Origin: Acidobacteriota bacterium
GTDB taxonomy: Bacteria > Acidobacteriota > Blastocatellia > Chloracidobacteriales > Chloracidobacteriaceae
DNA: 64,000 nucleotides
Direction of reading: 5' to 3'
NCBI GenBank assembly: GCA_016208495.1
Contig: JACQXX010000109.1
Coordinates: forward strand, 1-64,000
Shown: positions 1,301 through 62,708 of the stretch, one piece after another
How positions within the stretch are numbered: position 1 is the first letter of the stretch
Layout: each line of letters begins with the position of its first letter
The notes under the pieces: model-generated
The model's database searches: none
What the model was told of the DNA's origin: nothing
What the model saw: the letters and a program-made list of their open reading frames with translations, nothing else
Translations under genes and position numbers: made by a program

Positions 1301-1378
1301 CTTTTTGTGTGTTTGGAGGAAGCCGTCTGTTGTTTGTGTCCGCATCGGGCGCAGGCGAAGATCAAAATCCACCTTGTT

Positions 1379-2035
1379 ATGCACCGTTACCACGATACTA
1401 ACGCCATGATCATTGGTATCAGTGGCGGCACCGGTTCGGGAAAAACCACTGTCGCCAGGAAAATCATTCAAGCTGTCGGCCCTGAAAGAGTGACCTTTGT
1501 CCAGCAGGATGCCTATTACCGCAACCTGGGAGACATGCCGATTGAACTGCGCCATCGAGTGAACTTTGATCATCCCGATGCTTTTGATACCGAATTACTT
1601 TTAAACCATCTTGAAGCTTTGCGTGAAGGCGAAACCATTGAACAACCAATTTATGACTATGTGACCCACTCACGCAAAGCCGAAGCGATCCATACTGAAC
1701 CACGTCCCGTCATCATTGTTGACGGCATCTTAATTTTCTTCAGTCCACAAATGCGGGCACTGATGGACATGAAAATTTATGTTGATACTGATGCTGATTT
1801 GCGGTTTATCCGCCGATTGGAACGCGACGTTCACGAGCGAGGCCGGTCGGTGGATTCGATTGTCAATCAGTACCTGACGACGGTTCGCCCCATGCATTTG
1901 CAATTTATCGAACCGCTCAAACGCTATGCTGATGTGATCATCCCGAAAGGCGGCGACAACGAAGTCGGCATTGACCTGATCACCGAAAAGATCAAAGCCA
2001 TTCTGGCACGAGCCATTCCAAGCCAACCGGGCTGA
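1379..2035 (+). CDS. udk: Uridine kinase
   Basis: Phosphorylates uridine and cytidine to UMP and CMP in the pyrimidine salvage pathway. The P-loop GISGGTGSGKTT follows the start directly; QQDAYYR, NFDHPDAFD and RRLERDVHERGR are the conserved uridine kinase segments for nucleoside binding and the lid. The protein has about 218 residues, the usual size. Two in-frame starts are possible, 1379 and 1406; neither has a clear ribosome binding site. I chose 1379 because it gives the short leader of about nine residues seen in E. coli Udk. The frame extends back to 1286, which would overlap the divergent neighbour's start and is unlikely. Followed by a GGGGCTGAA-type inverted repeat rather than a classical terminator. 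Confidence 0.9.
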   Translation: MHRYHDTNAMIIGISGGTGSGKTTVARKIIQAVGPERVTFVQQDAYYRNLGDMPIELRHRVNFDHPDAFDTELLLNHLEALREGETIEQPIYDYVTHSRKAEAIHTEPRPVIIVDGILIFFSPQMRALMDMKIYVDTDADLRFIRRLERDVHERGRSVDSIVNQYLTTVRPMHLQFIEPLKRYADVIIPKGGDNEVGIDLITEKIKAILARAIPSQPG

Positions 2036-2071
2036 AAAAACCAGGGCTGAAGATTCGCAAGCTCAGGGCCT

Positions 2072-2216
2072 GGGGCTGAAAAAACAAAGTCTTCAGCCCC
2101 AAACTCAACCTGATACCGATTTGCAATGGTCCCCTCGTATCAGCAAACAGTTAAGTAATTCAATCAGATAAACTTAGCATACTACTGACTACGGACTACT
2201 GACTACAAACTGGTAT
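2072..2216 (+). repeat. Hairpin plus dispersed repeat R1, copy 1
   Basis: GGGGCTGAA (2072-2080) pairs with TTCAGCCCC (2092-2100). Then 2110-2216 is a ~107-bp repeat, here named R1, that begins TGATACCGATTTGCAATGG, contains CTACTGACTAC heptamers and ends AAACTGGTAT; the two ends are near inverted repeats of each other. R1 occurs again at 24413-24519 and, inverted, at 16456-16559. At this copy the end reads TATAAT (2214-2219) only ~10 bp ahead of the sthA AAGGAG, so R1 may supply a -10 box, although I see no good -35. Confidence 0.75.
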
Positions 2217-2248
2217 AATTTTTCAATTAAGGAGCCGAAGCAAGCGTT

Positions 2249-3634
2249 ATGGACTACGATGTTTTGGTTATCGGGACCGGACCAGCCGGACAGCGGGCTG
2301 CCCAAACAGCAGCCAAATACAAACCCAAAGTGGCCGTGGTCGAACGAAATCCACTCGTGGGCGGCGCCTCACTCAATACGGGCACCATTCCATCAAAAAC
2401 CCTGCGCGAAGCCGCTGTTTACCTCTCCGGTCGCCGGTTGCGCGATGTATATGGTGAAAGCTACACGGTGAAAAAAGACGTTACGATGGAAGATCTTGCC
2501 ATCCGATCCCGTCACGTCACCCAGGCTGAACGCGAAGCCGTCAAACGCCGCCTGACGCATAGCCATATCGAAATTTTTCAGGGCGTGGCCTCGTTTGTGG
2601 ACCCGCATACCATTCAAATTGCTGGTGCTCCACGAACTCAAACCATCACAGCAGAAAAAATTATCATTGCCACCGGGACACTGCCTCGCCAGCCGCCAGG
2701 GATTGAATTCCGGCGTGGGCATATTATGGATTCCGATGCCATCCCGGAAATGACTGAAATTCCACGCAGCCTGCTTGTGATTGGGGCCGGGGTGATTGGC
2801 GTCGAATATGCCACCATCTTTGCTTCGCTCAATGTCGAAGTCACGCTTGTGGATGGACGCCCAACCATTCTCGATTTCGTGGACCGCGAAGTGATTGACA
2901 TGCTGATGTATCACATGCGCGATTTGGGAATTTCGATCCGATTGGGCGAAGCCGTGGCCAGTGTCGAATGGGTTCGCAATGACCGCATCGTCGCCACGCT
3001 TGAATCCGGCAAACGCATTATTACTCAAAGTATTCTGGTTGCCACCGGTCGCCGGGCGGCAACTGACAACCTGAATCTGGCGGTGGCTGGACTCCACACG
3101 GATGATTCAGGTCGCCTGAAGGTCAATGATTTCTTCCAGACCGAAGTCCCACACATTTATGCCGCTGGGGATGTAATCGGCTTTCCGTCACTGGCATCCA
3201 CCAGTATGGAACAGGGCCGCAATGCAGCGCGGCATGCCTGTGATCGCGAAGTGTTCCGGCTGAACGAAGTCTACCCTTACGGCATTTACACCATTCCGGA
3301 AATTTCAACCGTCGGCAAAACCGAAGCTGAATTGACCAAAGCCAAAATTCCTTATGAAACGGGCGTGGCACAATATCGCGACATCGTTCGAGGACGCATT
3401 CTGGGCGATAAAGCCGGGATGCTCAAAATTCTGTTTCATCTGGAAACCCATGAAATTCTGGGCGTTCACGCCATCGGCGAAGGTGCCACGGAACTCATTC
3501 ACATTGGTCAGGCGGTGATGGCGCACGGCGGAAAGCTCGACTACTTTGTGGATTCGGTCTTTAACTATCCGACGCTGGCCGAAGCCTACAAAGTCGCCGC
3601 ACTGGATGGAATCAGCAAGCTCAGTTTTGCCTGA
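2249..3634 (+). CDS. sthA: Si-specific NAD(P)+ transhydrogenase (soluble)
   Basis: Cytosolic FAD enzyme that moves reducing equivalents between NADPH and NAD+. It has the pyridine nucleotide-disulfide oxidoreductase fold: FAD motif VIGTGPAG at residues 7-14, a second dinucleotide motif VIGAGVIGVEYA near 176-187, the FAD motif AAGDVIGFPSLA near 306-317 and a dimerisation domain at the C-terminus. The segment where lipoamide dehydrogenases have CxxxxC reads GGASLNTGTIPSKTLRE with no cysteine, which excludes a disulfide reductase and fits the transhydrogenase family. Length 461 against about 466 in E. coli SthA. AAGGAG lies 14 nt ahead of the ATG. It is a single-gene unit, flanked by repeats on both sides. 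Confidence 0.88.
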   Translation: MDYDVLVIGTGPAGQRAAQTAAKYKPKVAVVERNPLVGGASLNTGTIPSKTLREAAVYLSGRRLRDVYGESYTVKKDVTMEDLAIRSRHVTQAEREAVKRRLTHSHIEIFQGVASFVDPHTIQIAGAPRTQTITAEKIIIATGTLPRQPPGIEFRRGHIMDSDAIPEMTEIPRSLLVIGAGVIGVEYATIFASLNVEVTLVDGRPTILDFVDREVIDMLMYHMRDLGISIRLGEAVASVEWVRNDRIVATLESGKRIITQSILVATGRRAATDNLNLAVAGLHTDDSGRLKVNDFFQTEVPHIYAAGDVIGFPSLASTSMEQGRNAARHACDREVFRLNEVYPYGIYTIPEISTVGKTEAELTKAKIPYETGVAQYRDIVRGRILGDKAGMLKILFHLETHEILGVHAIGEGATELIHIGQAVMAHGGKLDYFVDSVFNYPTLAEAYKVAALDGISKLSFA

Positions 3635-3635
3635 A

Positions 3636-3790
3636 CCAGTTTTTCGTCAGTAGTCAGTAGTCAATTAAGCTTATTCAATTGAATAACTTATACCATTCTG
3701 GAATAAAGTTTTTGTGCGTGAGCGCAGTCACGTTATTCGATCAAATGGAGTTCGTGGACGATTGACTACGATCTACTGACGAAAAACTGG
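3636..3790. repeat. 155-bp inverted-repeat element (AGTAGTC family)
   Basis: 3636-3665 and 3761-3790 are inverted repeats of 30 bp with three mismatches; both start from CCAGTTTTTCGTCAGTAG and include AGTAGTC heptamers. The ~95-bp core has no gene. The left arm starts one base after the sthA stop codon. Confidence 0.85.
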
Positions 3791-3917
3791 CATTCGCTAC
3801 TTATTCAAAGAAGACAGTGATTTGAAACTGGGATAAGCAGGATAAGGGAAGCGGGTTCAGCCTGGAGCACATTCTCAAAATTGAAGCCGAACTGAATCTC
3901 TTCTCTGAGGTACCCCA

Positions 3918-4613
3918 ATGAAATCAACCAGTTCAAAACTCCAGACTGTTCTTTTCCTTTCTCTCCTAATGACTGGACTTTGTGTTTCGCAAAGCACCAT
4001 TGCTCAAACCAAACCGCCCAAATACAAAGCTGTGACCGTGGAACTCAGTATTCCAGGGTTTGGAGAACCCCGTATAAGTGAAATTCCATTGAATCATCGC
4101 TTTGGAGGTGGTGGTGGTGGTGGGCGAAGTCTGTGTAGCCTGTCGGCGGAAGAATTAGAGAAAGGTACTGGGATAACAAACTATTCCTTTTCAATGAGTG
4201 CCCGGAATTTCCGTGCCAGCCAGCTTGTTATGGTCAACCTTACTTTGACATTGTACCAGAATAATACTCGGATATTGCCTCAAGATGATGAGCCAGGGAT
4301 TTGCCTCAAAGAAAGGTTATATGTCGGTTATGACGAAGTCCGCGAAGTCTCCCTGCCGCATAACGTCAAGGTCAAACTCTATTTGAAACCGCTAACTCCG
4401 CCTGAGAAAAAACCAAAAGCTAAAGCGGCAGAACCAGTTTCTGAACCAATCGAACCTCAACTCCAGCAAAACACTGCAATTGACGATTCTCAAGCCCTGA
4501 ACCCTGATAAACCCCTATTTCGAATAAGGATGCCGGTGCAGGATTGTGTAGGCCCGATACAACTGTTCAGCCACCAAAACCTGGGCAATTTCATGGGTAA
4601 AGGTCAATTTTGA
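3918..4613 (+). CDS. Secreted protein of unknown function
   Basis: I do not recognise the family. The 231-residue product has a clear Sec signal (MKST..., hydrophobic LFLSLLMTGLCVS, likely cleavage after STIAQ near residue 30). The mature part has a seven-glycine run near residues 64-70 encoded by a slippage-prone GGT run, a central beta-rich portion (about 85-155), and a Pro/Lys/Glu-rich region (about 155-190). The last 33 codons (4515-4613) lie antisense to the 3' end of rlmH. Since RlmH ends with its normal C-terminus, the tail of this protein is probably either read-through into the neighbour after loss of the original stop, or an ORF whose last part is not functional. Confidence 0.6.
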   Translation: MKSTSSKLQTVLFLSLLMTGLCVSQSTIAQTKPPKYKAVTVELSIPGFGEPRISEIPLNHRFGGGGGGGRSLCSLSAEELEKGTGITNYSFSMSARNFRASQLVMVNLTLTLYQNNTRILPQDDEPGICLKERLYVGYDEVREVSLPHNVKVKLYLKPLTPPEKKPKAKAAEPVSEPIEPQLQQNTAIDDSQALNPDKPLFRIRMPVQDCVGPIQLFSHQNLGNFMGKGQF

Positions 4614-6791: not shown

Positions 6792-7483
6792 GTGATCTTG
6801 ATTCTACTTTTCTGGTAAAGCTGATACGTGTAGATGTAGCGTTCCACCATCGGCGGAACATATTGCGCGATGGACTTTCCTTGACTGACAGCGGCGCGAA
6901 TTTCCGTTGCGGAAACGTCTAACGCCACCAGATCCGTCAGAAAAATCCGTTTGTTAGGGGCGGTCAGTTCAGTTGAAATTGTTGAGAGCGAAAACCCATT
7001 TCGAAAATCAACCACCCGGTTCTCACCAAATCGTTCGCGATGGAAGGTGGCATCTCCCAGGTCATATCCTGGGCGCGACATCACGATGATGTGGCAGAGG
7101 TCAATGAGCGTCTGAAATTTATACCATTGGTGGAGCATTCCAAACGAATCGGCGCCCATGAGAAAGAAAATATGGGCATTCGGTCCATAGCTGTCGCGAA
7201 ACGTACTCACTGTTTCAACTGTGTAGGGCTTTTCCGGCGCAAACAGTTCAATGGTTGAAACTCGACTGTGTTCCGAATGGAGTGTGGCCAATACGGTCAT
7301 TGCGTGGCGGTGATAGGCCGTGGTCACCTGCTCAAATTGTTTGTGAGGTGGGCTGCAGGTTGGAATAAACAGCAACTCGTCAAAGCTGAACAGACCAATC
7401 AAACTTTCAGCCAGGCGCAAATGACCATAATGAATAGGATCAAAAGTTCCCCCAAACAGTCCAATTCGGCGCGGTGTTCCCAT
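6788..7483 (-). CDS. nadD: Nicotinate-nucleotide adenylyltransferase
   Basis: Adenylates nicotinate mononucleotide to deamido-NAD in NAD biosynthesis. The 231-residue product starts MGTPRRIGLFGGTFDPIH, with the nucleotidyltransferase motif GGTFDPIHYGHL, followed by FIPTCSPPHK (substrate loop) and SATEIRAAV (the second ATP-binding motif). A longer frame reaches 7522, but the chosen ATG lies four bases after the obg stop, with GAGG inside the end of obg as its ribosome binding site. Overlaps rsfS by four bases. Confidence 0.93.
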   Translation of the reverse strand: MGTPRRIGLFGGTFDPIHYGHLRLAESLIGLFSFDELLFIPTCSPPHKQFEQVTTAYHRHAMTVLATLHSEHSRVSTIELFAPEKPYTVETVSTFRDSYGPNAHIFFLMGADSFGMLHQWYKFQTLIDLCHIIVMSRPGYDLGDATFHRERFGENRVVDFRNGFSLSTISTELTAPNKRIFLTDLVALDVSATEIRAAVSQGKSIAQYVPPMVERYIYTYQLYQKSRIKIT

Positions 7484-7487
7484 ACCC

Positions 7488-8567
7488 TCACTCTTCGACA
7501 ACCGCAGTAACAACGGGTTCAACCACGACCGATGGTTGAAAAATTGATGGCGGTGCGGGCTGTTTGGCTTTTAACTCCGTTAATTTCTGGTCAACTCGAT
7601 AGATCAGCGGTTTGACGCCTTCACCCGTAACTGATGAAATCACAAAGAGTTCCAACCCACGGGCCTTGCAAAAATCACGCAGGGCGTCGGTTCGTTCAGA
7701 TGATTGCACCACGTCCTGCTTGGTGGCCACCACGATTTGCGGACGCTCGGCAATCTCAGCATTGTAGAAGCGCAATTCACGCATGATCGTTTCATAGTCC
7801 TGTATCGGATCACGACCTGAAAACTCTGATACATCAATCAAATGGAGCAGCAACCGCGTTCGTTCGACGTGGCGCAAAAACTGCAGGCCAAGGCCGTGGC
7901 CTTCGTGGGCGCCTTCAATCAAGCCTGGAATATCAGCCACAACGAAACTGCGGTAATCTTCCAGTTGAACCACGCCCAGGTTGGGTACCAGTGTGGTAAA
8001 TGGATAGTCGGCAATTTTGGGTCGCGCCGCGGAAATCACTGAAATCAAAGTGGATTTCCCGACATTTGGATATCCGAGCAAGCCAACATCCGCCAGAATT
8101 TTGAGTTCAAGCTGCAGATAGCGCATCTCGCCGGGGTACCCAGGTTCGTGTCGGCGCGGTGCCCGGTTGGTTGACGTCGCAAACTGGGCATTGCCGCGTC
8201 CGCCGCGTCCGCCGGCAACCACCAGCACTCGCTGACCCGGTTCCATTAAATCCGCCACGAGTTCATTGGTATCAAAATCAAAGACCTGGGTGCCAATCGG
8301 TACTTTGACAATCATATCGGCGCCGCTTTTGCCGTGGCAGCAACTGCCCTCGCCGTGTCGGCCACGATCAGCCTTGTATTGTGGGTTATAGCGAAATGAA
8401 AGCAGGGTGTTCATCTGGTCGGAAGCCTCCAGGTACACCGAGCCTCCATTGCCGCCATCCCCTCCGGACGGACCGCCGCGAGGGACAAATTTCTCACGTC
8501 GGAACGCCAAACAGCCGTTCCCACCGTGACCGCCTTCGACATAAATTTTAGCTCGATCAATAAACAT
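7488..8567 (-). CDS. obgE: Obg-family GTPase
   Basis: Conserved GTPase involved in 50S ribosome maturation and stress signalling. The 359-residue product begins [18 protein letters not shown] and has the glycine-rich Obg fold (about 1-158), then the G domain with G1 [10 protein letters not shown]3 [16 protein letters not shown] and a G4 written TKQD where most members have NKxD. The C-terminal extension after the G domain is only about 30 residues and Pro/Val-rich, so the OCT domain is absent, as in many lineages. The ORF extends upstream to 8642, but that part overlaps a terminator-like hairpin and lacks homology. Confidence 0.94.
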
Positions 8568-8572
8568 ATAGC

Positions 8573-8614
8573 AAAAAACACAAAGGCACGGGACTGCTCT
8601 GGTCAGCCCGTGCC
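8573..8614 (-). terminator. Terminator-like hairpin between rpmA and obg
   Basis: On the minus strand GGCACGGG and CTG pair with CAG and CCCGTGCC (arms 8585-8596 and 8604-8614 with one bulged base), followed by TTTGTGTTTTTTG. This has the form of an intrinsic terminator placed inside the operon, 5-50 bp before the obg start. It could lower obg-nadD-rsfS expression relative to the ribosomal protein genes. Confidence 0.6.
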
Positions 8615-8657
8615 CGTGAAGAGTGGAAACCTGTGAGGACAATGAATGCTGGAAAAA

Positions 8658-8951
8658 TTAGACAGCGGCGGCAGCCTGAGCCTGTGGTACCACGGCTGGA
8701 GTTGGATACACGCTGATGTATTTTCCTTTACGTCCCTTGTCTTCGAATTTGACATAGCCGTCAACACAAGCAAACAACGTGTCATCGGAACCGATGCCAA
8801 CATTATTGCCGGGCTTGTATCGTGTCCCGCGCTGACGCACCAAAATCGAACCACCTGTCACAAACTGACCACCAAAACGCTTTACACCAAGGCGTTTTGC
8901 GTTTGAATCGCGACCGTTTCGCGAACTACCGACACCTTTTTTGTGAGCCAT
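8658..8951 (-). CDS. rpmA: 50S ribosomal protein L27 (bL27)
   Basis: Ribosomal protein whose N-terminus reaches the peptidyl-transferase centre. The 97-residue product starts [17 protein letters not shown] and contains [19 protein letters not shown] and [10 protein letters not shown], all signature segments. No cleavable N-terminal extension of the Firmicutes type is present, since the Met directly precedes AHKKG. The C-terminal tail is Ala/Gln-rich. Lies 72 bp after rplU. Confidence 0.96.
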
Positions 8952-9023
8952 AACAAAAACCTCTCTCAACCAATGCGAAATCTTATGATATAGAATTGCC
9001 TGTGAGCAGCGCCACGGACGCCA

Positions 9024-9335
9024 TTAGGCGATGGATTCAATGCGCACCGCCGTAAATCCCTGGCGATGACCTTGTTTCCGCTTGTATTGCTTGCGGCGCT
9101 TGAATTTAAAAACAATGACCTTCGGGCCGCGGCCCTGTTCAACCACAACACCCTTCACGGCGGCACCGTTGACGGTTGGCTGTCCAATTTTGATTTCCGA
9201 GCCATTGGAAAGGACCAACACCTGGTCAAATTCGACCGATTCTCCAACATTGGCTGCCAGGGATGGAAAGCGAACCACTTCCCCTGCCTGAACACGAAAC
9301 TGCTTGCCTCCAGTTAGAACGACTGCGTACGACAC
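9024..9335 (-). CDS. rplU: 50S ribosomal protein L21 (bL21)
   Basis: Large-subunit ribosomal protein that binds 23S rRNA. The 103-residue product MSYAVVLTGGKQFRVQAGE... ends with the conserved KRRKQYKRKQGHRQGFTAVRIESI. First gene of the operon; the strong promoter 9431-9460 gives a leader of about 90 nt in which GGAGGGAG precedes the start. That leader could hold an L21 autoregulatory site, but I cannot show one by eye. Confidence 0.96.
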   Translation of the reverse strand: MSYAVVLTGGKQFRVQAGEVVRFPSLAANVGESVEFDQVLVLSNGSEIKIGQPTVNGAAVKGVVVEQGRGPKVIVFKFKRRKQYKRKQGHRQGFTAVRIESIA

Positions 9336-9430
9336 AAAGGACTCCCTCCAGGGTTTTGATCAACCCTCTCGATGTGATGATATCTTCTTCTGTATTGAAG
9401 CGAAAAAGTGTGCTTTTTGAGAAAAGGGGC

Positions 9431-44565: not shown

Positions 44566-47500
44566 TCACACATATTTAATACCAACTTTCGAGAGGAACT
44601 CTTTCGGTGGGACGCTTCCGATCATGGCAAACACAACATCGTTTGGGACCACGGCCAGTTCTTTTTTGCCGCGCACAGATTCCAAAACCACTTCCCCGTC
44701 ACGGATTTCGCGAATTGCAGCACCAAAATAGGCTTTGACCCGTCCCTTATCAATGCAGTAATAGACCCACATTTTGTTTTCGAGGGTCAGATCTTTCGGA
44801 AAGTCAGATCGAACCACCAGCGTTACCTCATTGCCACCTTCCTCTGAAAAAACAACCGTGCCGTCAGGTTGGCGTTTCCCGGCTAAATCAACTGCCGCTT
44901 CAACTGCCGAGTTTCCAGCACCGACCACCATGACCTTCTGATTTTGATACTCACTGGCTGTCTTCAGCCGATAGCGAACACGATCCTCAGTTTCACCAGG
45001 AACACCGAGTCTTCGTGGCTCCCCAGCATTTCCAATCGCCAAAATCACTTTCCGGACTCGATACCCATCCGGGTTCTTCACGGTTCTCACCAGAAAGAAC
45101 CCCTCGTTTTTTTCAAGCCCGGTACAGCCTTCAAATTCGTGAATTTTTAACCCAAGCCGAGACACTGAGTCATCCCACCACGAAATCATGCGTTCCTTCA
45201 GATCACCTGTTCCCTCTAACTTAATCGGCCCTAATTGAGCATCATCCGGGACAAAAGGATTAAAGGCGACATATTTTCCAGCCGGATATTTCTCGGCAAT
45301 CGTGGCATAGCGTCGGCCCTGCTCCAATGCCAGATAGCGCACCCCTTTCTCCGCCGCCCGAGCCGTGGCCGCCAGACCTGCCGGGCCAATGCCGATAATC
45401 GCCACATCATATTCAACCTCGGGCAGTGGGGGTTGATGACTGAGGAGTTCAACAATTTTGTCAATCGCGGTGCGGCCTTCCCGGATGGCATTTCGAATCA
45501 ATGGCACTCCCGAAACATCCCCGACCAGGTAAATTCCAGGCACATCGAAGGTTTCAAAGCCTTCGGTGGCACTTTTGCGGAGCGGCTTGGGCGGTTCGCG
45601 AATTTCCAGCTTGGTGTTGATCAACACACACGATTGGGGCACGGTTGGGCAGGCTTGCTGACATCCGGTATCCTCCATGCATTGTTCATAATTCACCACC
45701 ACCGCGTGATGCTCCTGCTCGTCAAAGCCCAGAACATCCTGCGGACAAGCCAAAATACAGGCGTGGCAGCCAATACACGTTTCATAATTGATGATTGGGT
45801 GCGGAACTGGTCGCTCTTTGGCCGAAGTTTTGGCGAGTTCCCGCTGCACAGCCGACTCCCAATGATCGGCATAGCGGGTATCGTTAAATTTGGGTCGGGC
45901 TTCTTGAAAATCAATCACCTGACCGCTGAGGCGTTGCAAAATCTGGCGGCGGCGAAAGACATCCAGCAACAAAAATCCGGTGGCGGCAACCGGAATCACA
46001 CTCAAAAACAATGTCCAATCTGTCAGGCACATACCGCCGAACCGGGCGCCCAGCGATGTCCATTCCCAGGCTTTCCCACCCCGATAGGCATCCCCAATCG
46101 AAATCACCGGCTTTTCTTTTCCGGGTGGATGAAGCGCCGCAATGACCTGCCGATCTTTGCCATGTTGCGGATGGCACGAGGCACAATCCATTTGAGACGC
46201 ATTGGCAATCACGTCAAGCTGATGCGAGGTATCAACCCCAAGGGACTGACTATGACACACAGCACATTTGTTTCGGTCAATGGTTCGGATAGCCGCCGGA
46301 GTGGCAAAGGAAGTATGACAACTGGAACATTTCCAGTCCTGATTGACAGAAGCCGCCATATGCACCAGATGAAATTGTTCCTTCGGCGAGAGGTATTCCG
46401 GCAAAACCATATGTGGATTCAGCGGTTTGGTCCAGATCCAGGTGCCATCCACGATTGGATATCCAATCCCGCCGCCGTGGGGTGCTGTCAGTTTCGTGCC
46501 ATCGGCTTTGACCGCTTTGGGGTGCCTTGGACGTTCACGATGACAATCCACACACATGCTTCGGGAAACGTGACCGGGTTCAAATTTCAACCCTTTATGT
46601 TCGGTATGACAATCGGTACATCCAACCCCAACCCGGTCATGGGGTTCAATGACCTTTGGATTAAAATGGCTGGTCTGATGGCAATCAACACATTGGACCT
46701 GCATGCTCCCGTTGCGTGGGTGACACACCGCGCATTTGTTTTCAACCAATCCATTTGCCACCAGTTTATGACGTAACCGGCTCATCACCAGTGGCGATTG
46801 ATCCACGAGTTCTTCAGCTTTGAGTGAATGTGGGCTGGAAACCGGCCCTGGCGAATACATCTTCTCCCAGGCAAAGATGGCGATAATCACGGCCAGCAGG
46901 GTTACGGCACCAACCGTAAACAAGTACCCGCGTGGCCAGGGCAGGGTCAAATCACTGGTGGGAAGCCAGTGAAACCGCCATTTCCCAAGGTAGAGATTGT
47001 GTTCCTCAAGCACCGGGTCCGGCTTTTGGGGCCGGAGCACTGATTCGTCGTGAAGTTTTTGCTTATTTTCAATCGCCTGTTTACGGCGTTCCCAAAACAC
47101 CGTCATGGCTTGTTGAAAGTCTTTTCGATCTTCATCCGGCAAGGCGGTAATCGAAGTCAACAATCCGGCCAGATCACGTTGCAGACGGGCTTTGTTTAAG
47201 AGCAGCGTCGAATTTCGCGATGTGGGCTGTACGGGAACGACCTTTCCCTGATAGGACACCTGGAGTGGCGCGCCCTGGACCCGCTGACGGGCCAGCAGTT
47301 TCTGTAAATCCGACACCTGAATCATGACCCGTTCGGCGTTTCGATTGGCAGCCGAAACTTCAACCACCCGATGGTGAGCATCAGATGGGCCTAACTGTTC
47401 AAAAATAAGGTCAATTTCCTGGATTAATTCACTAAACCATTGATCCATCTGTGGATCTTTGGCCCCAGGCACCACGACCGAATCAAAAAGCAGGTCAATT

Positions 47501-48093
47501 TCCTGGATCAGGTCTTGAAAGACCTGTTTGATCTCAACCGCACTGGCCGGGCTTTTTCCAGCCACCCGGAGATGAACGGCTTTTTCAGACAGCGGCGCCA
47601 GATCAATGGTTGGTGCTTCCTGTGCTTCAGGAGTTATCGCCGGTGCATTCAGGGCAGCGGCGACAATTGCCGCGCCATTTTCTATCATCACCGTTGAAGG
47701 TCCTTCTGGCCCAACCAGTCCCGCGTCGGTTAATAACTGAGCTCCCCGATTTCCCGCGGTAAACGAGTCAAAGTACCGTTCGACATCCAGGATCAATTCG
47801 TGCTGCTTGACAGTGGTCCGAACCAGAAACACCCCGATCTGAATCATGTCTCCGGTCTCCAGATACACCAGATCCGTGAGTTTCCCATTCACCAGCGTGC
47901 CGTTTGATTTGGAAAGATTGGTCAGCCAAAACAACCCCGCGACTTCGCAAATCCCGGCGTGCATTCGTGAAACGGTTGGGTGATTGAGTAGCAAATCGTT
48001 TTCAAAGGCGGATCCAATGGTCAACCCATCACGCTCGATGCTTAACTCATAGCGGCCCCAATCCTTTTTGCGAATGACGTAGCGTGAAAGCAT
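44566..48093 (-). CDS. FHA-heptaheme-ferredoxin-flavoprotein fusion
   Basis: A 1175-residue redox protein with in-out-in topology. Residues 1-95 are an FHA domain (GSAFENDLLLNH, SRMHAG, SNGTLVNG). About 100-385 is a helical linker. One membrane helix (389-409) leads to a periplasmic section with seven CxxCH c-heme motifs, at Cys 454, 468, 492, 514, 589, 610 and 637. A second helix (692-712) returns to the cytosol, where ferredoxin cysteines 773, 776, 779, 783 and 805, 811, 815, 822 could bind [4Fe-4S] clusters. The rest is a thioredoxin-reductase-like flavoprotein with GIGPAG (900-905) and VVGAGNSAVEAA (1056-1067). The FAD motif GIYLVGDVSGVPLIRNA (853-869) precedes the GxGxxG motif, as in a circular permutation. 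Likely passes electrons between NAD(P)H and periplasmic hemes. The partner gene is 380 bp upstream on the same strand. Confidence 0.85.
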   Translation of the reverse strand: MLSRYVIRKKDWGRYELSIERDGLTIGSAFENDLLLNHPTVSRMHAGICEVAGLFWLTNLSKSNGTLVNGKLTDLVYLETGDMIQIGVFLVRTTVKQHELILDVERYFDSFTAGNRGAQLLTDAGLVGPEGPSTVMIENGAAIVAAALNAPAITPEAQEAPTIDLAPLSEKAVHLRVAGKSPASAVEIKQVFQDLIQEIDLLFDSVVVPGAKDPQMDQWFSELIQEIDLIFEQLGPSDAHHRVVEVSAANRNAERVMIQVSDLQKLLARQRVQGAPLQVSYQGKVVPVQPTSRNSTLLLNKARLQRDLAGLLTSITALPDEDRKDFQQAMTVFWERRKQAIENKQKLHDESVLRPQKPDPVLEEHNLYLGKWRFHWLPTSDLTLPWPRGYLFTVGAVTLLAVIIAIFAWEKMYSPGPVSSPHSLKAEELVDQSPLVMSRLRHKLVANGLVENKCAVCHPRNGSMQVQCVDCHQTSHFNPKVIEPHDRVGVGCTDCHTEHKGLKFEPGHVSRSMCVDCHRERPRHPKAVKADGTKLTAPHGGGIGYPIVDGTWIWTKPLNPHMVLPEYLSPKEQFHLVHMAASVNQDWKCSSCHTSFATPAAIRTIDRNKCAVCHSQSLGVDTSHQLDVIANASQMDCASCHPQHGKDRQVIAALHPPGKEKPVISIGDAYRGGKAWEWTSLGARFGGMCLTDWTLFLSVIPVAATGFLLLDVFRRRQILQRLSGQVIDFQEARPKFNDTRYADHWESAVQRELAKTSAKERPVPHPIINYETCIGCHACILACPQDVLGFDEQEHHAVVVNYEQCMEDTGCQQACPTVPQSCVLINTKLEIREPPKPLRKSATEGFETFDVPGIYLVGDVSGVPLIRNAIREGRTAIDKIVELLSHQPPLPEVEYDVAIIGIGPAGLAATARAAEKGVRYLALEQGRRYATIAEKYPAGKYVAFNPFVPDDAQLGPIKLEGTGDLKERMISWWDDSVSRLGLKIHEFEGCTGLEKNEGFFLVRTVKNPDGYRVRKVILAIGNAGEPRRLGVPGETEDRVRYRLKTASEYQNQKVMVVGAGNSAVEAAVDLAGKRQPDGTVVFSEEGGNEVTLVVRSDFPKDLTLENKMWVYYCIDKGRVKAYFGAAIREIRDGEVVLESVRGKKELAVVPNDVVFAMIGSVPPKEFLSKVGIKYV

Positions 48094-48121
48094 GGCGAAC
48101 CTGGAGGCAAAATGAAGAATG

Positions 48122-48478
48122 TGATTAGTGGTTAGTGGTTAGTGGTTAGTGGTGCCAGTGAAGAGTTGAAGCCGTTTTGGTTCTCAACCCACGAAGTGGG
48201 CGCCGGCTCGTAGCCCAGGGCGAGTCTTCGAGCCCTGGGAATTCGGGTCATTCCCCGCCTTTTCCCCGCCCGGCCAGCCGCCGTAGGCGGCGGCTGGCCG
48301 GGCGGGGGTGAAGAGGCAACGGTTTCCCAGGGTTGCACCCTGGGCTACAAGCCTGCCACCCGCTTCGCGGGTTCAAGAACAATTTTCTTTCAAATCAATA
48401 CCTTACGGAAATTCCAAGAATTTCCAAACAGTCTCTAACCACTAACCACCAATCACTAATCACTAACCACTAATCAAC
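48122..48478. repeat. Multi-layer palindromic element with perfect 20-bp hairpin
   Basis: Outer layer: GGTTAGT heptamers (48125-48152) against ACTAACC units (48437-48470). Middle layer: 48180-48242 and 48325-48381 are imperfect inverted repeats (ACCCACGAAGTGGG and GTAGCCCAGGG-type sequence). Centre: 48264-48283 and 48288-48307 are a perfect 20-bp inverted repeat of very high GC (arm CCCCGCCCGGCCAGCCGCCG) with the loop TAGG. It fills the 380-bp gap between the two redox genes. The middle layer resembles GTAGCCCAGGGT...ACCCTGGG repeats common in several phyla. Confidence 0.85.
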
Positions 48479-51173
48479 GCCACAGGTAATAAATTACTTG
48501 AAAAATATGCGCCAACAACAACACCAGCATAAATGAAGTGGTGATGACATGCGGAGGAAGCCAGAGCCGTAATGCCCGATGAAGGTAAATCAGGGCGTCA
48601 ATCCGCCGGGCTGTCACGGCGGCTTCGACAATCCGCTTGAAAATCACCTGTTCTGATTTGGTTTTGAGCCTGGTTTGATCTGCCTGAAAAACCCAGGTCA
48701 TGGCTTCCAATAATACATCCAGCGGCTCCCGATAGAGATAATTGCGAAATAAAAATGAAAGGGAGGTGGTGAGTTTCAGGACCCGGTCACGTGCTGGAAG
48801 AAAGTATTGAAGAAAATCTGATTCGGTTTGATGCTCCCGCGCCTGACATTGGGCGGTTTCAAGCAAATCGGCGATTTCCTGATAGAGTTCTTCCCGGCGA
48901 CGGACCAAATCCTCAAGCAATAAAGGCTCTTCTTCGATTTGGGTCAACAATCGCGGGCCAAGTTGATAGATCAGGATACCCACCAACCCGGTTAAAATCA
49001 CCAGATCAAACGATATCATCAATGCCGTGGTCAGCAAACCACCTAAACTGGTGCCTCCGTGGAGTAAAATCACCAGCCCGGCAATCACTCCGGCATACGT
49101 ATGGCCAAGCATCCAGTAGCGAAGTGGTCCAACCCGGTGTTTCCAAATCTGGCGTCTGATTGGGTAGGTCATCACCACCGCAATTCCAAACAAACCCACA
49201 CATCCCGAGATCCAGCGCAGGTTCATCCAGCTTGTTCCCCACAGCGGCGTCCCCAAGCCATATTCAACAATGCCTGAAACGATACTGCCACACATGAGAA
49301 TCGTCATCACAATTCCAGCCAGATGGGCCCTGCGCTTCAGGACATCAACCTGTGCCGTATTCCCAACCAGCGTGGTTTCTTCACTCGTTCGAAAGGCTTT
49401 GCCGGTAATAGCCCCTAACTCTTCAAAATACTGAGTGGGCGAGACGCGCATCAGTGCCCCAGTCGGGCAATTTTCCTCACAACTATACTTGTGGTCCGAA
49501 TAGAGGGCTGCGCCAGTGGTATCCGTTGGGTTGAGCGGTGTTCCTGTACAGAGGTTGCATTTAATCGCAACCAGATCCTCGACCGATGTGACCAGCTTTG
49601 GGGGTTCCACCTTCAGACCGAGTCGGTGAAGCCAGTCGTGGAGGGTGTTTGGGTTCCGGGTTCCGGGTTCCGGGTTCCGGGTCTGTTTTCCTTGTGTCCA
49701 GCCAATCAATGAAAAAATTGATGTACTGGAAAACGACGACGATGAGGATTTCCCGCCACCGGATGGGCTTTTCGGCACAGGCGCGCCAGATTGAGAAGCT
49801 CGGGGAGCCGATAAAATCGGCAGCGTCGCCTTGGGTTTGGCGGGAGGTTTGGGCGGGGCTAATTCACTGCGTGGAATCAACGAAATCGCATTGTATGGGC
49901 ATTGCGTGGCGCAATCCCCACACCCGATACACAGTTTGGTATCAATATCTACTTTGCCTCCGGCAAATCGAGCAATAGCCCCTGTCGGGCAACCCGTGAG
50001 GCACTCCGGATCTTTACAATGCAAACAAACGGCTGGAGACAACAAATTCTGAGTTCGGGTTGACATCAGTGTTGCCTGTGGCCGAACAAAATGAATCCCC
50101 CGGCGGGTCAACCGTGAATGGTGATGCACCATGTGACAGGCTCGTGAGCAGTTTCCACACCGCACACACAGATCCATATCCATCAAGAGCAAATTGGTGG
50201 CATCAGACAGACCCTTATCCAATATTCGCGCCTGGGCCTGCTGAACTTCAGGGGTGAACGTCAGAGAGTCTCCGGGTTGAATCGGGGTCCCAACCGAAGC
50301 ATATGGAATAAAAGCCCGCCGCACAGCGGCCAGCAATTCGGGCCGGGTTTTCAGTTCGGTCACGGGGATTTCCAAAACTTCGGTTCGGCTGAGCGTAACC
50401 ACCTTGTAGGGCCACCGGGCTTCGGGATATTCCAATACATTCAGCCCCAAACAATGCCCTGGCCCCAAAAAATCAGCGAAATCATCCCCTTGATCGCGAC
50501 GATCTGGCGCAATTCGCTTGACCCAGCCTTCTTTGATCAGAATCAATTGCTCGACTGAACTGCCTTCCCGACACAGGTCATGCCCGCGTGCCAAAACGGT
50601 AAATTCAGCAATATCAACCAGTTGATCACGAACCTCAGCCGGTATGGCCAGCGCGGTCAAAGCAAACTCACGTCCCTTATTGCGGTACGTCAGGTCCAGT
50701 GCCGTTCCGAATTTTTGGAGCTTCCGCAAAATCCGCAGGGCCGGGCGCTGCACTTCGAGCACGGTCATTCCCTGCTGAGCATGGGCCTTGACGGTATAGG
50801 TCTGGGAGGTGCCGGACAAAACCGCCATTTCCCCAAACGGGCGGCCTTTTCCAACTTCACCAATCGGTTCAACTCGTCTGTCTATAAAGACTTGAGCCAG
50901 GCCATCAACCACAATGAAAAACGTATTGGTTTCCCATTCACCTTGTTTGAGGACTTCGGCGCCAGGTGGATAAACCAGCAGCCTGAAATAGGGCCCGACC
51001 TTCTTTCCAGGACCATAATTGCGACCATAAAGTGCTACCTCCAGGTCAACTCCAAATTTGTACCCAAGTCCTGGCTCGACTTCGGCCAGTTCCTCCAAAG
51101 CACTGATGGATTTAATCGCTCCAAGAATGGTGTGGTGATCTTTAATTTCCTGCGGCTGGGAAATATCACTCAT
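48474..51173 (-). CDS. Twin cNMP-binding, four-cluster ferredoxin, b-type membrane protein
   Basis: 899-residue protein. Residues 65-150 and 190-275 are cyclic-nucleotide-binding-like domains (GKGRPFGEMAVLSGT in the first is the phosphate-binding cassette pattern; the second is degenerate, FLGPGHCLGLNVLE). An NrfC/HybA-like ferredoxin follows with clusters from Cys 336/339/342/346, 383/386/391/395, 415/418/421/425 and 539/542/565/569. The last pair is split from the rest by a ~100-residue linker that includes KQTRNPEPGTRNPNT (496-510), encoded by a GGGTTCC array. About five membrane helices follow (614-634, 652-669, 688-705, 712-735, 875-897) with His617, 691, 705, 875 and 889, which could ligate b-hemes. 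The start at 51173 is preferred over 51200 because GGAG lies upstream. Predicted to exchange electrons with the heptaheme protein encoded next to it. Confidence 0.85.
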   Translation of the reverse strand: MSDISQPQEIKDHHTILGAIKSISALEELAEVEPGLGYKFGVDLEVALYGRNYGPGKKVGPYFRLLVYPPGAEVLKQGEWETNTFFIVVDGLAQVFIDRRVEPIGEVGKGRPFGEMAVLSGTSQTYTVKAHAQQGMTVLEVQRPALRILRKLQKFGTALDLTYRNKGREFALTALAIPAEVRDQLVDIAEFTVLARGHDLCREGSSVEQLILIKEGWVKRIAPDRRDQGDDFADFLGPGHCLGLNVLEYPEARWPYKVVTLSRTEVLEIPVTELKTRPELLAAVRRAFIPYASVGTPIQPGDSLTFTPEVQQAQARILDKGLSDATNLLLMDMDLCVRCGNCSRACHMVHHHSRLTRRGIHFVRPQATLMSTRTQNLLSPAVCLHCKDPECLTGCPTGAIARFAGGKVDIDTKLCIGCGDCATQCPYNAISLIPRSELAPPKPPAKPKATLPILSAPRASQSGAPVPKSPSGGGKSSSSSFSSTSIFSLIGWTQGKQTRNPEPGTRNPNTLHDWLHRLGLKVEPPKLVTSVEDLVAIKCNLCTGTPLNPTDTTGAALYSDHKYSCEENCPTGALMRVSPTQYFEELGAITGKAFRTSEETTLVGNTAQVDVLKRRAHLAGIVMTILMCGSIVSGIVEYGLGTPLWGTSWMNLRWISGCVGLFGIAVVMTYPIRRQIWKHRVGPLRYWMLGHTYAGVIAGLVILLHGGTSLGGLLTTALMISFDLVILTGLVGILIYQLGPRLLTQIEEEPLLLEDLVRRREELYQEIADLLETAQCQAREHQTESDFLQYFLPARDRVLKLTTSLSFLFRNYLYREPLDVLLEAMTWVFQADQTRLKTKSEQVIFKRIVEAAVTARRIDALIYLHRALRLWLPPHVITTSFMLVLLLAHIFQVIYYLWR

Positions 51174-54811: not shown

Positions 54812-55858
54812 ATGGAAGAAACGATCTCCCGTGACGACTATGACAGTCCCTGGAAAGAAGCACTTGATGAATATTTTAAGGATTTTCTGGAATTGCTGTT
54901 TCCCATGGTCCATGACGGAATTGACTGGAGTATTCCTCCTCAGTCACGTGACAAAGAACTTCAGAAAGTGACAGCCACCGCTCAACAGAGGCGGCAGGTA
55001 GCTGATAAGCTGAAGGAAGTACAAACCCTTGATGGAAGAACGAGATGGGTGCTCATTCACATCGAAGTTCAGAGCCAATGGGAAGCCGACTTTGCCAAGC
55101 GGATTTTCCGATTTGACGCCCGGATATATGATGAATTTGATAAACAAGTCATCAGTCTGGTGGTACTTGGCGATGGATTACCAGACTGGAAGCCAAGCCA
55201 GTTTGGCTGGTCATTCTGGGGATATGAGATGAAAGTTCGGTTTCCTATCGTGAAACTGATCAACTTGCATGCTGAAGGACTCGAACAAAGTCAAAATCGG
55301 TTTGCGCCCATTGTGCTCGCCCATCTCAAAACCATGGAGACGAAAAACGAAGCTCAAACCCGGCGCGAATGGAAGTTTCGAATTGTCCGCTCACTCTATG
55401 AGCGAGGCTATTCGGCTGAAGATGTGCGAAAATTGTTTCGCATTGTAGATTGGTTTATGCAGTTACCTGAAGAACTTGAGCGCAAGTTTCAGGCAGATTT
55501 AGAAGAATATGAGGAGCAACATCATATGCCATACATTACCAGCATCGAACGAATGGCCGAAGCTCGTGGCGAAGCTCGTGGCGAAGCTCGTGGCGAAGCT
55601 CGTGGCGAAGCTCGTGGCGAAGCTCGTGGCGAAGCTCGTGGCGAAGCCCGTGGCGAAGCTCGTGGTTTAGTTAAAGGTCGAATTCAGTCCAAAATCGAAA
55701 CGCTTCTGATGACGCTTGATGCCCGTTTCGGCACACTTCCACCAGCTCTGGTTGAAAAAATTCAGTCCATTGATGATGAACCACAGCTCACCAGCCTCCA
55801 ACGAACGGCGGTTTTAGTGACAACCCTTGATGAATTCACCACTGAGCTTGGAAAATAA
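54812..55858 (+). CDS. Rpn/YhgA-like PD-(D/E)XK nuclease with GEAR repeat
   Basis: 348-residue protein of the Rpn/transposase_31-like group (also called DUF4351-containing). The N-terminal PD-(D/E)XK-type fold is indicated by DSPWKEALDEYFKDFLELLF, with VLIHIEVQSQ as the probable catalytic strand (E-x-Q in place of E-x-K) and IFRFDARIYDEF after it. Residues 250-285 are nine copies of Glu-Ala-Arg-Gly encoded by 12-bp units at 55559-55666. The C-terminus (LLMTLDARFGTLPPALVEKI) resembles DUF4351. AGAAAGG precedes the start. Rpn proteins promote RecA-independent recombination in E. coli; the role here is inferred from family only. Confidence 0.78.
   Translation: MEETISRDDYDSPWKEALDEYFKDFLELLFPMVHDGIDWSIPPQSRDKELQKVTATAQQRRQVADKLKEVQTLDGRTRWVLIHIEVQSQWEADFAKRIFRFDARIYDEFDKQVISLVVLGDGLPDWKPSQFGWSFWGYEMKVRFPIVKLINLHAEGLEQSQNRFAPIVLAHLKTMETKNEAQTRREWKFRIVRSLYERGYSAEDVRKLFRIVDWFMQLPEELERKFQADLEEYEEQHHMPYITSIERMAEARGEARGEARGEARGEARGEARGEARGEARGEARGLVKGRIQSKIETLLMTLDARFGTLPPALVEKIQSIDDEPQLTSLQRTAVLVTTLDEFTTELGK
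55559..55666 (+). repeat. 12-bp minisatellite GAAGCTCGTGGC x9, in frame
   Basis: Nine tandem 12-bp units. Seven are identical, the eighth has one change (CCC) and the ninth one (GGT). They encode (Glu-Ala-Arg-Gly)9 inside the Rpn-like nuclease gene. The near identity of the units means recent expansion and probable length variation between strains. Confidence 0.95.
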
Positions 55859-60950: not shown

Positions 60951-62708
60951 CTATCCCACCTCTTTCAACACCCGAAAGCCCAGCCGGTTGGTACGGCAAT
61001 CTGGCAATTCGACCTGTGACTGTGCCGAACGGCAAAAAGGAGCAATGTCGGCCCAACTTCCGCCCCGTGACAGGCGGTAGGTTCGGGTTGTGTCTGTGCC
61101 CAGGGCATTCTGGCACAGTTCCCGAACATTGCCGTGCATGTCATAAAGCCCCCAGTCGTTGGGGAGTTTTTGACCAACCGGATGAGTGCGATGACTGGAA
61201 TTGTCAATATACCACCCCATCAGTTCCAGCGTCCCGGCATAGGGACCGAGGGTCCCCGCCCGGCAGGCATATTCCCACTCGCTTTCGGTCGGAAGCCGAT
61301 AACTTGAGGTGCGTTCTTTTTTATTGAGTCGTTTGAGAAACTCCTGTACCTCTTCCCAGCCAATACTCTCAACCGGCAATCGGGTGTTGCCTTTAAAGAA
61401 TGAGGGCGCCGTCCCCATCACCGCTTTCCATTCTTCCTGGGTCACTGGATACACCCCAAGATAAAACGGTTGGGAGATGATGACTTCCTGCTGTCGTTCG
61501 TCCCGACTGCGCCCGGCTTCGGTTTCAGGTGACCCCATCATAAAAGTGCCTGTGCGAATCAAAACAAACTCCATTTTGAGCCGGTTCTTGAATTCGCGAG
61601 GCACATCCGGAACTGGAATCCGCCCGGCTGGTTGAGCTGGTGGAATCACCCCAGCTTCTGGGGGATTTTTTCGCTTCCCTTTTCCAGTCAAGGTCTCAAC
61701 CATTGAATTAAAAATTGGAATGATGATCCGTTTGGCCCGCACAATGGTTGGAGCTTCCGGCTGATCAGTTGGCGGTACCAGAGCAGCCATCTGTAGCGCT
61801 GAGGTCGAATAGCCAGACGCGGGTGGGAAACTTTGTTCGATAGAATCTTGAGGAACGAAATCAGTTGGTACCACGCCAGAGACAGCCGGCATACCGCCTG
61901 AAACAGTCACCGCCTGCACGGCCTGGAGCATTTCAACTGCCGAAGCAAACCGCTCGGTAAAATACATCCGGGTGGCTCGATCCAGAACTGAGGCCAGTCC
62001 AGGATTTACTGACGAAAGAAACGACTGCCACTTCACAGCTCCGGTTTGAGGATCAGTGGGCAAATCCTTGGGCCCGATCCCGGTCAAGGCACAAATCGCG
62101 GTCATTCCCAGGCTGAACAAATCGCTGGCCAGTACCGGACGACCAGCAGCCTGTTCGAGCGGCATATACCCTGGCGTTCCAATCCGGGTGGTGGCTTCCT
62201 CGTGGGCACCGATGACCCCACGCGCAATCCCAAAATCAATCAGAACCGGCAGGCGATCCCGCCGCCGAAAAATAATGTTGCTCGGCTTGATGTCACGATG
62301 AATGATGTTTTTGGAATGCACATACTGAAGTACAGGCAGCAAGCCCACAAGCATGGCGACGACTTCCGATTCGCTCAGGCGACCAGTTTTGCGAATCCGC
62401 TCAATCAGGGTCTGACCCTCAACCCATTCCTGAATCAGGTAGAAATTCCCACCTTCGGCAAAATAGGCAAACAGTTTGGGAATTTGGCCCAATGGCGACT
62501 GCTCCCCGAGGCGTTCCAAAATGGCGGCTTCTTCCTTGAAACGTTCAATCAATTCCTGTTGCAGTGTCCGATCAGTGGCCGGTTTCAACTGTTTTAAGAC
62601 ACATCGGCGATTGGACGGAAGATGGGTGTCTTCGACCAGAAACGTCTCGCCATAGGCACCCTGTCCAAGTTGTTGCAACACACGGTAGCGATTGCTGAGC
62701 AGTGCCAT
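60951..62708 (-). CDS. Ser/Thr protein kinase fused to FGE-sulfatase-type domain
   Basis: 585-residue Hanks-type kinase. Kinase domain about 7-270: GQGAYG, catalytic Lys39, HRDIKPSN (Asp139), LIDFGIA (Asp158) and the activation segment GTPGYMPLEQ are intact. A linker (270-365) leads to a formylglycine-generating-enzyme-like domain (about 365-585: FVLIRTGTFMMGSPETEAG, YPVTQEEWKAVMG, RLPTESEWEYACRAG, GLYDMHGNVRELCQN, NRLGFRVLKEVG). There is no membrane helix, so it is cytosolic. In kinase fusions the FGE-type domain is thought to bind ligands or targets rather than oxidise sulfatase cysteine. Targets could include the FHA proteins encoded at 12456-14228 and 44566-48093. The gene is bracketed by composite elements C2 and C3 in the same orientation. 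Confidence 0.9.
   Translation of the reverse strand: MALLSNRYRVLQQLGQGAYGETFLVEDTHLPSNRRCVLKQLKPATDRTLQQELIERFKEEAAILERLGEQSPLGQIPKLFAYFAEGGNFYLIQEWVEGQTLIERIRKTGRLSESEVVAMLVGLLPVLQYVHSKNIIHRDIKPSNIIFRRRDRLPVLIDFGIARGVIGAHEEATTRIGTPGYMPLEQAAGRPVLASDLFSLGMTAICALTGIGPKDLPTDPQTGAVKWQSFLSSVNPGLASVLDRATRMYFTERFASAVEMLQAVQAVTVSGGMPAVSGVVPTDFVPQDSIEQSFPPASGYSTSALQMAALVPPTDQPEAPTIVRAKRIIIPIFNSMVETLTGKGKRKNPPEAGVIPPAQPAGRIPVPDVPREFKNRLKMEFVLIRTGTFMMGSPETEAGRSRDERQQEVIISQPFYLGVYPVTQEEWKAVMGTAPSFFKGNTRLPVESIGWEEVQEFLKRLNKKERTSSYRLPTESEWEYACRAGTLGPYAGTLELMGWYIDNSSHRTHPVGQKLPNDWGLYDMHGNVRELCQNALGTDTTRTYRLSRGGSWADIAPFCRSAQSQVELPDCRTNRLGFRVLKEVG

Follow-up and report, generated by a model that had tools for sequence, protein, structure and literature searches.

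Two adjacent Acidobacteriota genes as candidate subunits of one conduit between cytosolic reductants and periplasmic multiheme cytochromes

Introduction

CbcL, ImcH and CymA pass electrons from quinol to periplasmic multiheme cytochromes, and CbcL joins b-type and multiheme c domains. In the ferric reductase/NADPH oxidase superfamily, electrons travel from NAD(P)H through flavin adenine dinucleotide (FAD) and two b-hemes, whose His ligands lie about 13–14 residues apart in two helices, to the outside. Here we describe two neighbouring genes, designated a and b, in a 64,000-nucleotide stretch of an Acidobacteriota genome of the class Blastocatellia (assembly GCA_016208495.1, contig JACQXX010000109.1; hereafter the window). 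The product of a joins a forkhead-associated (FHA) domain to seven c-type hemes, a ferredoxin domain and an NAD(P)H flavoprotein; that of b joins two cNMP-binding-like (CNB) domains to a four-cluster-type ferredoxin and a membrane domain. On balance, we favour the view that a and b are two subunits of one quinone-bypassing inner-membrane complex leading from NAD(P)H or ferredoxin to periplasmic cytochromes, with the signal domains adjusting or assembling it. The domains, the conservation of cofactor ligands, the linkage, the co-occurrence and the re-fusion reported below were computed.

The domains of the module formed by the two genes are known, as is its general task, but we could place their combination in no named family. 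Like CbcL, ImcH and CymA, the module would supply periplasmic multiheme cytochromes with electrons from the cytoplasmic membrane, but it has a built-in iron–sulfur/flavin entry on the soluble side as well as the FHA and CNB domains. With the ferric reductases and NADPH oxidases it shares a putative His ligand pattern (H691/H705 and H875/H889 of b, present in 58 aligned b sequences and 9 membrane domains), whereas its five helices, its iron–sulfur relay from flavin to b-heme, its YpdA/TrxR-like flavoprotein and its heptaheme exit set it apart. No FNR-type FAD/NAD(P)H domain of that superfamily was found in a (25/26 Pfam families) or b (17/17); the flavoprotein is of the Pyr_redox type and lies on the a rather than on the b chain. 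This flavoprotein resembles YpdA bacillithiol reductase and thioredoxin-reductase-like FNR proteins in fold and sequence, but a scores below the YpdA cut-off and carries the domain on the same chain as a ferredoxin and a membrane heme protein. The ferredoxin of b recalls the DsrMKJOP, polysulfide and arsenate reductases (DsrO and ArrB models, both below cut-off; PDB chains 6cz7_B and 2vpw_B, which we take to be ArrB and PsrB), but a and b lack a molybdopterin or DsrK-type part, and no NrfD-type Pfam match was found in b (17/17 families) or the window neighbours scanned, the rest of the genome not having been searched.

The Geobacter Ext cluster (extHIJKLMNOPQS; selenite/tellurite) likewise groups multiheme cytochromes with an inner-membrane b-type cytochrome, but it includes a porin-like protein together with a Rieske protein and a cytochrome b of the bc type, and FHA, CNB and NAD(P)H parts, which the module has, do not come up in the passages on Ext (PMC5877670). 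The passages also name ImcH and CbcL (PMC5877670). Neither a Rieske nor a bc-type cytochrome b match was found among the module proteins scanned with Pfam; the genomes were not searched for them. A ‘Forkhead-associated protein’ (cluster 403) is listed without comment for 27 of 87 iron-oxidising Gallionellaceae genomes in Table 1 of another study, and resembles the module in the FHA name and in having ten c-heme motifs in one protein (PMC10734462). No description of the a–b pair was found among the papers listed by full-text searches, judged by title and abstract, an absence that weighs little, as subscription papers lie mostly outside this coverage.

Results

Genes a and b form a conserved unit

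An earlier note on this stretch had linked a and b because they are adjacent and their cofactors are complementary. We scored the adjacency across genomes. A GTDB genome scan with the b alignment, taking the best 80 of 224 relatives, gave 75 loci (L numbers; genomes have G numbers), of which 73 are titled as Acidobacteriota groups; the others are L073 and a Raoultibacter ferredoxin match, L146. L073 is titled Actinomycetota, has a scaffold name that says Acidobacteria and is probably mislabelled. Sixty-two loci hold at least 600 bp behind b and were evaluated, the other 13 being dropped. In 59 of the 62, b is immediately followed by an FHA-heme gene; these loci include two at contig ends with the FHA part only (L107, L133), one with six heme motifs (L087) and one with the gene in two frames (L104). 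As for the remaining three, the FHA-heme gene lies 420 bp on, past a short frame, in L096 and in a frame overlapping b in L119, and the Raoultibacter locus, counted within the 62, is an unspecific ferredoxin match judged to be no relative of b. A seven-heme gene adjoins b on the same strand in all 16 neighbourhoods fetched from a phylum sample (L052–L067).

Among 162 genomes of the class (E-value limits of 1e-60 for b and 1e-25 for a), 72 have both genes, 7 only b, 3 only a and 80 neither. Judged by position, five of the b-only genomes look like contig-end or fragment cases (G304, G338, G339, G347, G396), and the matches in G305 and G311 are distant ones that read through stops; the a-only genomes are G325 and G361, where the gene stands at a contig start, and G425. 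The source genome contains a second adjacent pair, with the b paralogue on contig 92, and two pairs each are present in the source genome, G051 and G283. Chance adjacency is thus rejected by the linkage in 59 of 62 loci and by the co-occurrence in the class, and homologues lying mostly apart, which the earlier note had named as the counter-case, did not turn up. What had been the weak point of the reading is, at the level of sequence, now a strong one: a and b are supported as one conserved unit.

Domains, cofactors and predicted topology

The open reading frames, Pfam matches and structural models agree with the extent and domain content first claimed for the two genes (Table 1). Both lie on the minus strand and are read in the order b, then a; a TTG at 51200 is a possible alternative start of b. 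In a, Pfam matches include Cytochrom_c3_2 (9.2e-9) and Pyr_redox_3 (residues 899–1173, 3.7e-29), and the best NCBIfam model is YpdA (TIGR04018; 134.9 bits, under the cut-off of 339.9). In profile searches of the PDB, the matches of a included YpdA as well as two FHA proteins, GarA and OdhI, and Foldseek with the model gave YpdA/TrxR/FNR structures. Eight CxxCH strings occur in a. Because the one at residue 773 (CIGCH) belongs to the ferredoxin, the earlier count of seven hemes is correct, and a count of eight was rejected. The seven CxxCH motifs and seven further His residues are invariant in 21 chosen, aligned FHA-heme proteins, a set that is as expected for seven bis-His hemes. The model (mean predicted local distance difference test score, pLDDT, 73.0; FHA 85–95, flavoprotein mostly 85–97, heme domain about 40–86) contains two long hydrophobic helices, the number of membrane helices first proposed.

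For b, Pfam gave two cNMP_binding stretches (7.6e-21) and several Fer4 matches, and the best NCBIfam model is DsrO (72.4 bits; cut-off 200), with ArrB at 47.5 bits, also below its cut-off. PDB profile searches returned the CNB domains of PKG and of PKA regulatory subunits, together with ferredoxin subunits such as 6cz7_B and 2vpw_B. The model (mean pLDDT 73.8; CNB and membrane parts mostly 70–97, ferredoxin region mostly <60) has five long hydrophobic helices. With VIA-align, CNB1 matched the CNB domain of an M. loti channel (Z 15.0, root-mean-square deviation 2.4, 128 residues aligned) and CNB2 matched Gmet_1532 (Z 14.0, 2.4, 124 aligned); only CNB-type chains were among the matches listed, none covering the membrane domain. 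The two CNB-like domains, four-cluster ferredoxin and His-containing membrane domain of the earlier description were all recovered: 16 ferredoxin Cys and five His (H691, H705, H865, H875, H889) are invariant in 58 aligned rows, and the four His forming the two pairs are kept in 9 divergent membrane domains that include unfused forms and that of Sphingobium. Each pair spans 14 residues, one in helix 3 and the other in helix 5 of the model. His pairs at such spacing in two helices are the usual geometry for two stacked b-hemes, and from their conservation and spacing we predict that the membrane domain binds b-heme, the pairing being inferred.

The alignments comprised the window b with 57 of 66 b frames (A2, 58 rows), part of the a frames (A3), the 21 chosen a rows (A4) and 9 diverse membrane domains (A5). 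In b, basic residues occupy the loop that joins helices 2 and 3 and the stretch before helix 5, and in a they follow helix 2; the charges flanking helix 1 of a are not decisive. On this placement, the FHA, CNB, iron–sulfur and flavin parts are predicted to be cytosolic and the c-hemes periplasmic, and the cofactors and predicted topology fit one conduit, as had been proposed.

Split and re-fused forms

Several families have a divided into an FHA-heptaheme gene (mostly 470–515 amino acids) and a ferredoxin-flavoprotein gene (mostly 515–655 amino acids). A division of b into a CNB-ferredoxin gene and a membrane gene of 260–312 amino acids, the latter followed by a decaheme gene, is seen in L070, from another family of the class, and in L068, L149 and L150, from other classes; L068 and L149 have the flavoprotein and two FHA domains in a separate gene. 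Three successive genes in L158 and L159 encode a flavoprotein-CNB2-ferredoxin protein, the membrane domain, and an FHA–helix–ten hemes–helix–FHA protein. L160 has the first and third genes in this order, with a membrane-domain match located between them. The three-gene form with the same gene order is found on pMSHV of Sphingobium herbicidovorans, where the FHA match is sub-threshold (17.6 vs. the Pfam cut-off of 20.7); phyla beyond Acidobacteriota were covered only through a plasmid collection, in which one of 12 Sphingobium records was examined.

The flavoprotein is therefore part of the heme protein in the window, whereas Sphingobium and L158–L160 have it joined to the CNB-ferredoxin protein. 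Such swapping between the heme protein and the CNB protein is strong evidence that the parts serve one machine.

Some loci hold further genes of interest. An FHA domain with a sub-threshold DUF4388 match (L160, 2141–3046) stands directly before the flavoprotein-CNB-ferredoxin gene, and a two-FHA protein is encoded within the operon of L149 (4654–5655); each is a possible further regulator. L071 encodes a 1007-amino-acid protein with 40 CxxCH motifs (1272–4292) near membrane-domain and ferredoxin-flavoprotein genes (7020–9387) that are related to the two ends of the module, and may represent a simpler sister conduit.

An LVIVD-repeat cytochrome as candidate third partner

A cytochrome with LVIVD repeats and nine or ten CxxCH motifs, absent from the earlier note, as were the unfused and re-fused versions, emerged as a candidate third partner. 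It occurs in 78 of the 162 class genomes, and 76 of these are among the 82 genomes with a or b; of the other two, G123 and G313, the former has the module in unfused form (L070). The genomes that have a or b but not this cytochrome number six (G326, G333, G340, G361, G395, G400). Among 217 phylum genomes it is present in 20, all of which have the membrane domain (itself present in 40). The nine-heme genes beside the pair were weakened as a fixed partner: the L065 protein, used as a control, occurs in 53 class genomes, 37 with the module and 16 without. This control is imperfect, since neither its length nor its E-value limit matches that of the LVIVD query and some genomes have it linked to the module.

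The LVIVD gene lies in the stretch fetched around the module (about 20 kb; 25 kb for L153) in L057, L058, L063, L147 (the same place as L161), L150, L151, L153, L159 and L160, six of which seeded the LVIVD profile, and on the module's contig in G029. In the source genome it is on another contig than the pair (contig 2; L162, 7222–14860), followed by genes with nine, nine and four motifs, and this cluster is likely to be the periplasmic partner cluster of the pair. A further likeness to Ext is that the LVIVD cytochrome matches the ExtM model, at 85.8 bits (L057) and 64 bits (L153), far below the cut-off of 800, with weak matches to ExtN and ExtO (27.4 bits each); judged by these matches, the heme part of the cytochrome is distantly related to ExtM of Geobacter. 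Two side observations concern these genes: an HbpS-like protein is encoded beside a multiheme cluster (L065, 15145–16815), and a heme-binding protein is annotated beside the Sphingobium LVIVD cytochrome.

Conservation of the signalling domains

In the b family, the phosphate cassette of CNB1 has Glu in 57 of 58 rows and Arg in 56, and keeps FGE, so that ligand binding is plausible in the family. The paralogue of b in the source genome has the Arg. CNB2 shows no conserved Arg in the 58 rows, and its Glu is one place off in 39. FHA domains that bind phosphothreonine carry the motif G-R, S-R-x-H, N-G. Its residues occur in the 41 FHA rows as follows: G27 in 41, R28 in 30, S42 in 40, R43 in 40, H45 in 32 and N69 in 41.

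Features of the window

Table 1 Features of the a–b locus, in positions of the window
Feature	Coordinates	Strand	Description and basis
Gene a	44566..48093	-	1175 amino acids; FHA – helix – seven c-hemes – helix – 2[4Fe-4S] – NAD(P)H flavoprotein; open reading frame, domains, model
YpdA/TrxR/FNR-like NAD(P)H flavoprotein of a, 893–1173	44575..45417	-	without CxxC; Pfam, TIGR04018, Foldseek 7a76 2.3e-17
2[4Fe-4S] ferredoxin domain of a, 765–830	45604..45801	-	Pfam Fer4_10 2.1e-8; Fer4 dicluster ~765–817
Predicted transmembrane helix 2 of a, 690–716	45946..46026	-	basic stretch after it; model helix, hydropathy of relatives, charges
Heptaheme domain of a, 422–655	46129..46830	-	seven CxxCH and His H422, H485, H499, H539, H575, H578, H644
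Predicted transmembrane helix 1 of a, 388–408	46870..46932	-	model helix, hydropathy of relatives
FHA domain of a, ~20–92	47818..48036	-	Pfam PF00498 25–87, 1.3e-12; profile matches to PDB; conserved residues
Repeat element in the b–a gap	48122..48476		32-nt inverted repeats at ends, one overlapping the b stop codon
Gene b	48474..51173	-	899 amino acids from ATG at 51173; CNB – CNB – 16-Cys ferredoxin – five-helix cytochrome-b-like domain
Five-helix membrane domain of b, 611–899	48477..49343	-	H691/H705 in helix 3, H875/H889 in helix 5
Last four ferredoxin Cys of b (539, 542, 565, 569)	49455..49568	-	invariant in 58 rows
Four-cluster-type ferredoxin of b, Cys 336–425 (12 Cys)	49866..50177	-	DsrO below cut-off; 6cz7_B 1.3e-18
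CNB2 of b, 179–292	50298..50639	-	phosphate cassette without conserved Arg
CNB1 of b, 62–150	50724..50990	-	Q124 where Arg in 56/58 rows

A repeat element fills the roughly 380 bp that separate b from a; it is multicopy in the source genome, with about 40 scored places (40 of 364 candidates scored; 114 match lines). Within it lies an inner pair of perfect 20-nt inverted arms. The genes of the paralogous pair are about 60 bp apart. Elsewhere in the window, the product of a gene at 60954–62708, about 10 kb from the pair, combines a protein kinase domain with an FGE-sulfatase (formylglycine-generating-like) domain, proximity being its sole tie to the pair, and 54812–55858 encodes a protein with a run of GEAR repeats and no Pfam match at 0.001.

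Discussion

If a and b are subunits of one quinone-bypassing complex, electrons would enter on the cytosolic side from NAD(P)H via the FAD domain of a or, where the flavoprotein domain is missing, from a soluble ferredoxin or flavodoxin. They would then pass from the 2[4Fe-4S] domain of a to the four-cluster ferredoxin of b. Two b-hemes (H691/H875, inner; H705/H889, outer) would carry them through the membrane, and the seven c-hemes of a would hand them on to periplasmic multiheme cytochromes, chiefly the LVIVD nona- or decaheme cytochrome; quinone would be bypassed. The FHA domain and the CNB pair would face the cytosol, close to the step at which electrons pass from cluster to b-heme, and may adjust the complex or assemble it. 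We infer from the computed features complex formation, the order of electron transfer, the pairing of His into hemes, the outward direction and regulation.

A stronger version of this proposal, in which the complex stands for a new class of quinone-independent electron exit, a second messenger and Ser/Thr phosphorylation switch its flux directly through the CNB and FHA domains, and it feeds a dedicated LVIVD-propeller cytochrome, is a tentative one that we do not favour. Gating by the signal domains appears possible for the family and weak for the window copy. The gating by a Ser/Thr phosphoprotein advanced in the earlier note is weakened, its evidence being the conserved FHA residues, and gating by a small nucleotide is not supported for the window copy. 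Overall, that first reading is partly supported, and the observation behind it is confirmed.

Several points weigh against the proposed complex. In CNB1 of the window copy, Glu115 is present and Q124 replaces the phosphate-contact Arg, which, together with the lack of a conserved Arg in CNB2, makes nucleotide gating doubtful for this copy; in its FHA domain, Ser takes the place of the Arg that follows Gly, at position 28. No FHA match was obtained for the decaheme genes themselves in L068, L070, L149 and L150, nor for any of the proteins scanned in L070 and L150. NAD(P)H as an obligatory input, as first supposed, is weakened by 12 of 46 split loci that have no same-strand flavoprotein gene within 4 kb of b, with the qualification that L111 is cut short and L105 and L139 hold <4 kb there. 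Model confidence is low in the hemes and linker of a and through the ferredoxin of b. PDB profile searches found no solved relative of the b membrane domain by sequence, so that the case for heme b binding rests on His conservation and spacing. The Fisher value for co-occurrence of a and b in the 162 class genomes, 1.2e-33, ignores shared ancestry, and the LVIVD gene lies within 10 kb of b in only 9 of the 75 scan loci (flanks of at most 10 kb). Finally, b and a could be transcribed separately in the source genome because of the repeat element that lies between them.

The same complex might run in reverse, with periplasmic multiheme cytochromes feeding electrons, for example from extracellular reductants, inward to ferredoxin or NAD(P)+, driven by the membrane potential. 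The anatomy does not fix the direction and lends no support to the flow toward the periplasm that had been proposed. A ten-heme Forkhead-associated protein in 27 of 87 iron-oxidising Gallionellaceae genomes (PMC10734462), possibly akin to a, would also fit inward flow. We nevertheless consider reversed flow unlikely, if the most serious of the rivals. Many carriers belong to the Blastocatellia, regarded as mostly heterotrophs, and electrons moving inward to the potential of NAD(P)H would have to go uphill, against the membrane potential.

We think it rather improbable that the complex is instead linked to quinone, its b domain oxidising quinol (or reducing quinone) and the iron–sulfur/flavin arm and the c-hemes forming alternative branches, as in Psr, Dsr or Cbc systems. 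The ferredoxin of b does resemble the models of DsrO, TtrB, NrfC and ArrB, which are subunits of largely quinone-linked enzymes, and the membrane proteins of relatives give weak, sub-threshold matches to Ni_hydr_CYTB and DUF4405; but a straight cofactor chain needs no quinone, and the absence of an NrfD-type match in b stands against the analogy.

We give little credence to a mainly sensory role, in which the state of the periplasmic cytochromes would be relayed through the wire to FHA and CNB and on to kinases or enzymes. FHA and CNB are signalling folds, and they recur with the redox core in separate lineages, yet flux is the better fit for a module that includes a complete NAD(P)H reductase and co-occurs with a multiheme partner, and the CNB1 site is altered in the window copy. 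That a and b act independently and are merely co-regulated is very improbable: adjacency alone does not prove contact, but parts are swapped between the polypeptides, and the 10 one-gene genomes of the class are, by position, contig-end or fragment cases, distant forms or G425.

The substrates of the multiheme cytochromes in wastewater Acidobacteriota genomes are reported to be mostly unknown (PMC8100337). The re-fusions across classes offer a testable subunit map, and the LVIVD cytochrome a concrete partner. If a and b do form a quinone-bypassing complex, many Acidobacteriota would have a dedicated wire from cytosolic reductant to periplasmic cytochromes that bears signalling domains. Such a wire would give a handle on the multiheme cytochromes of this phylum, and on the question of whether electron export is open to post-translational switching, as opposed to control through gene expression.

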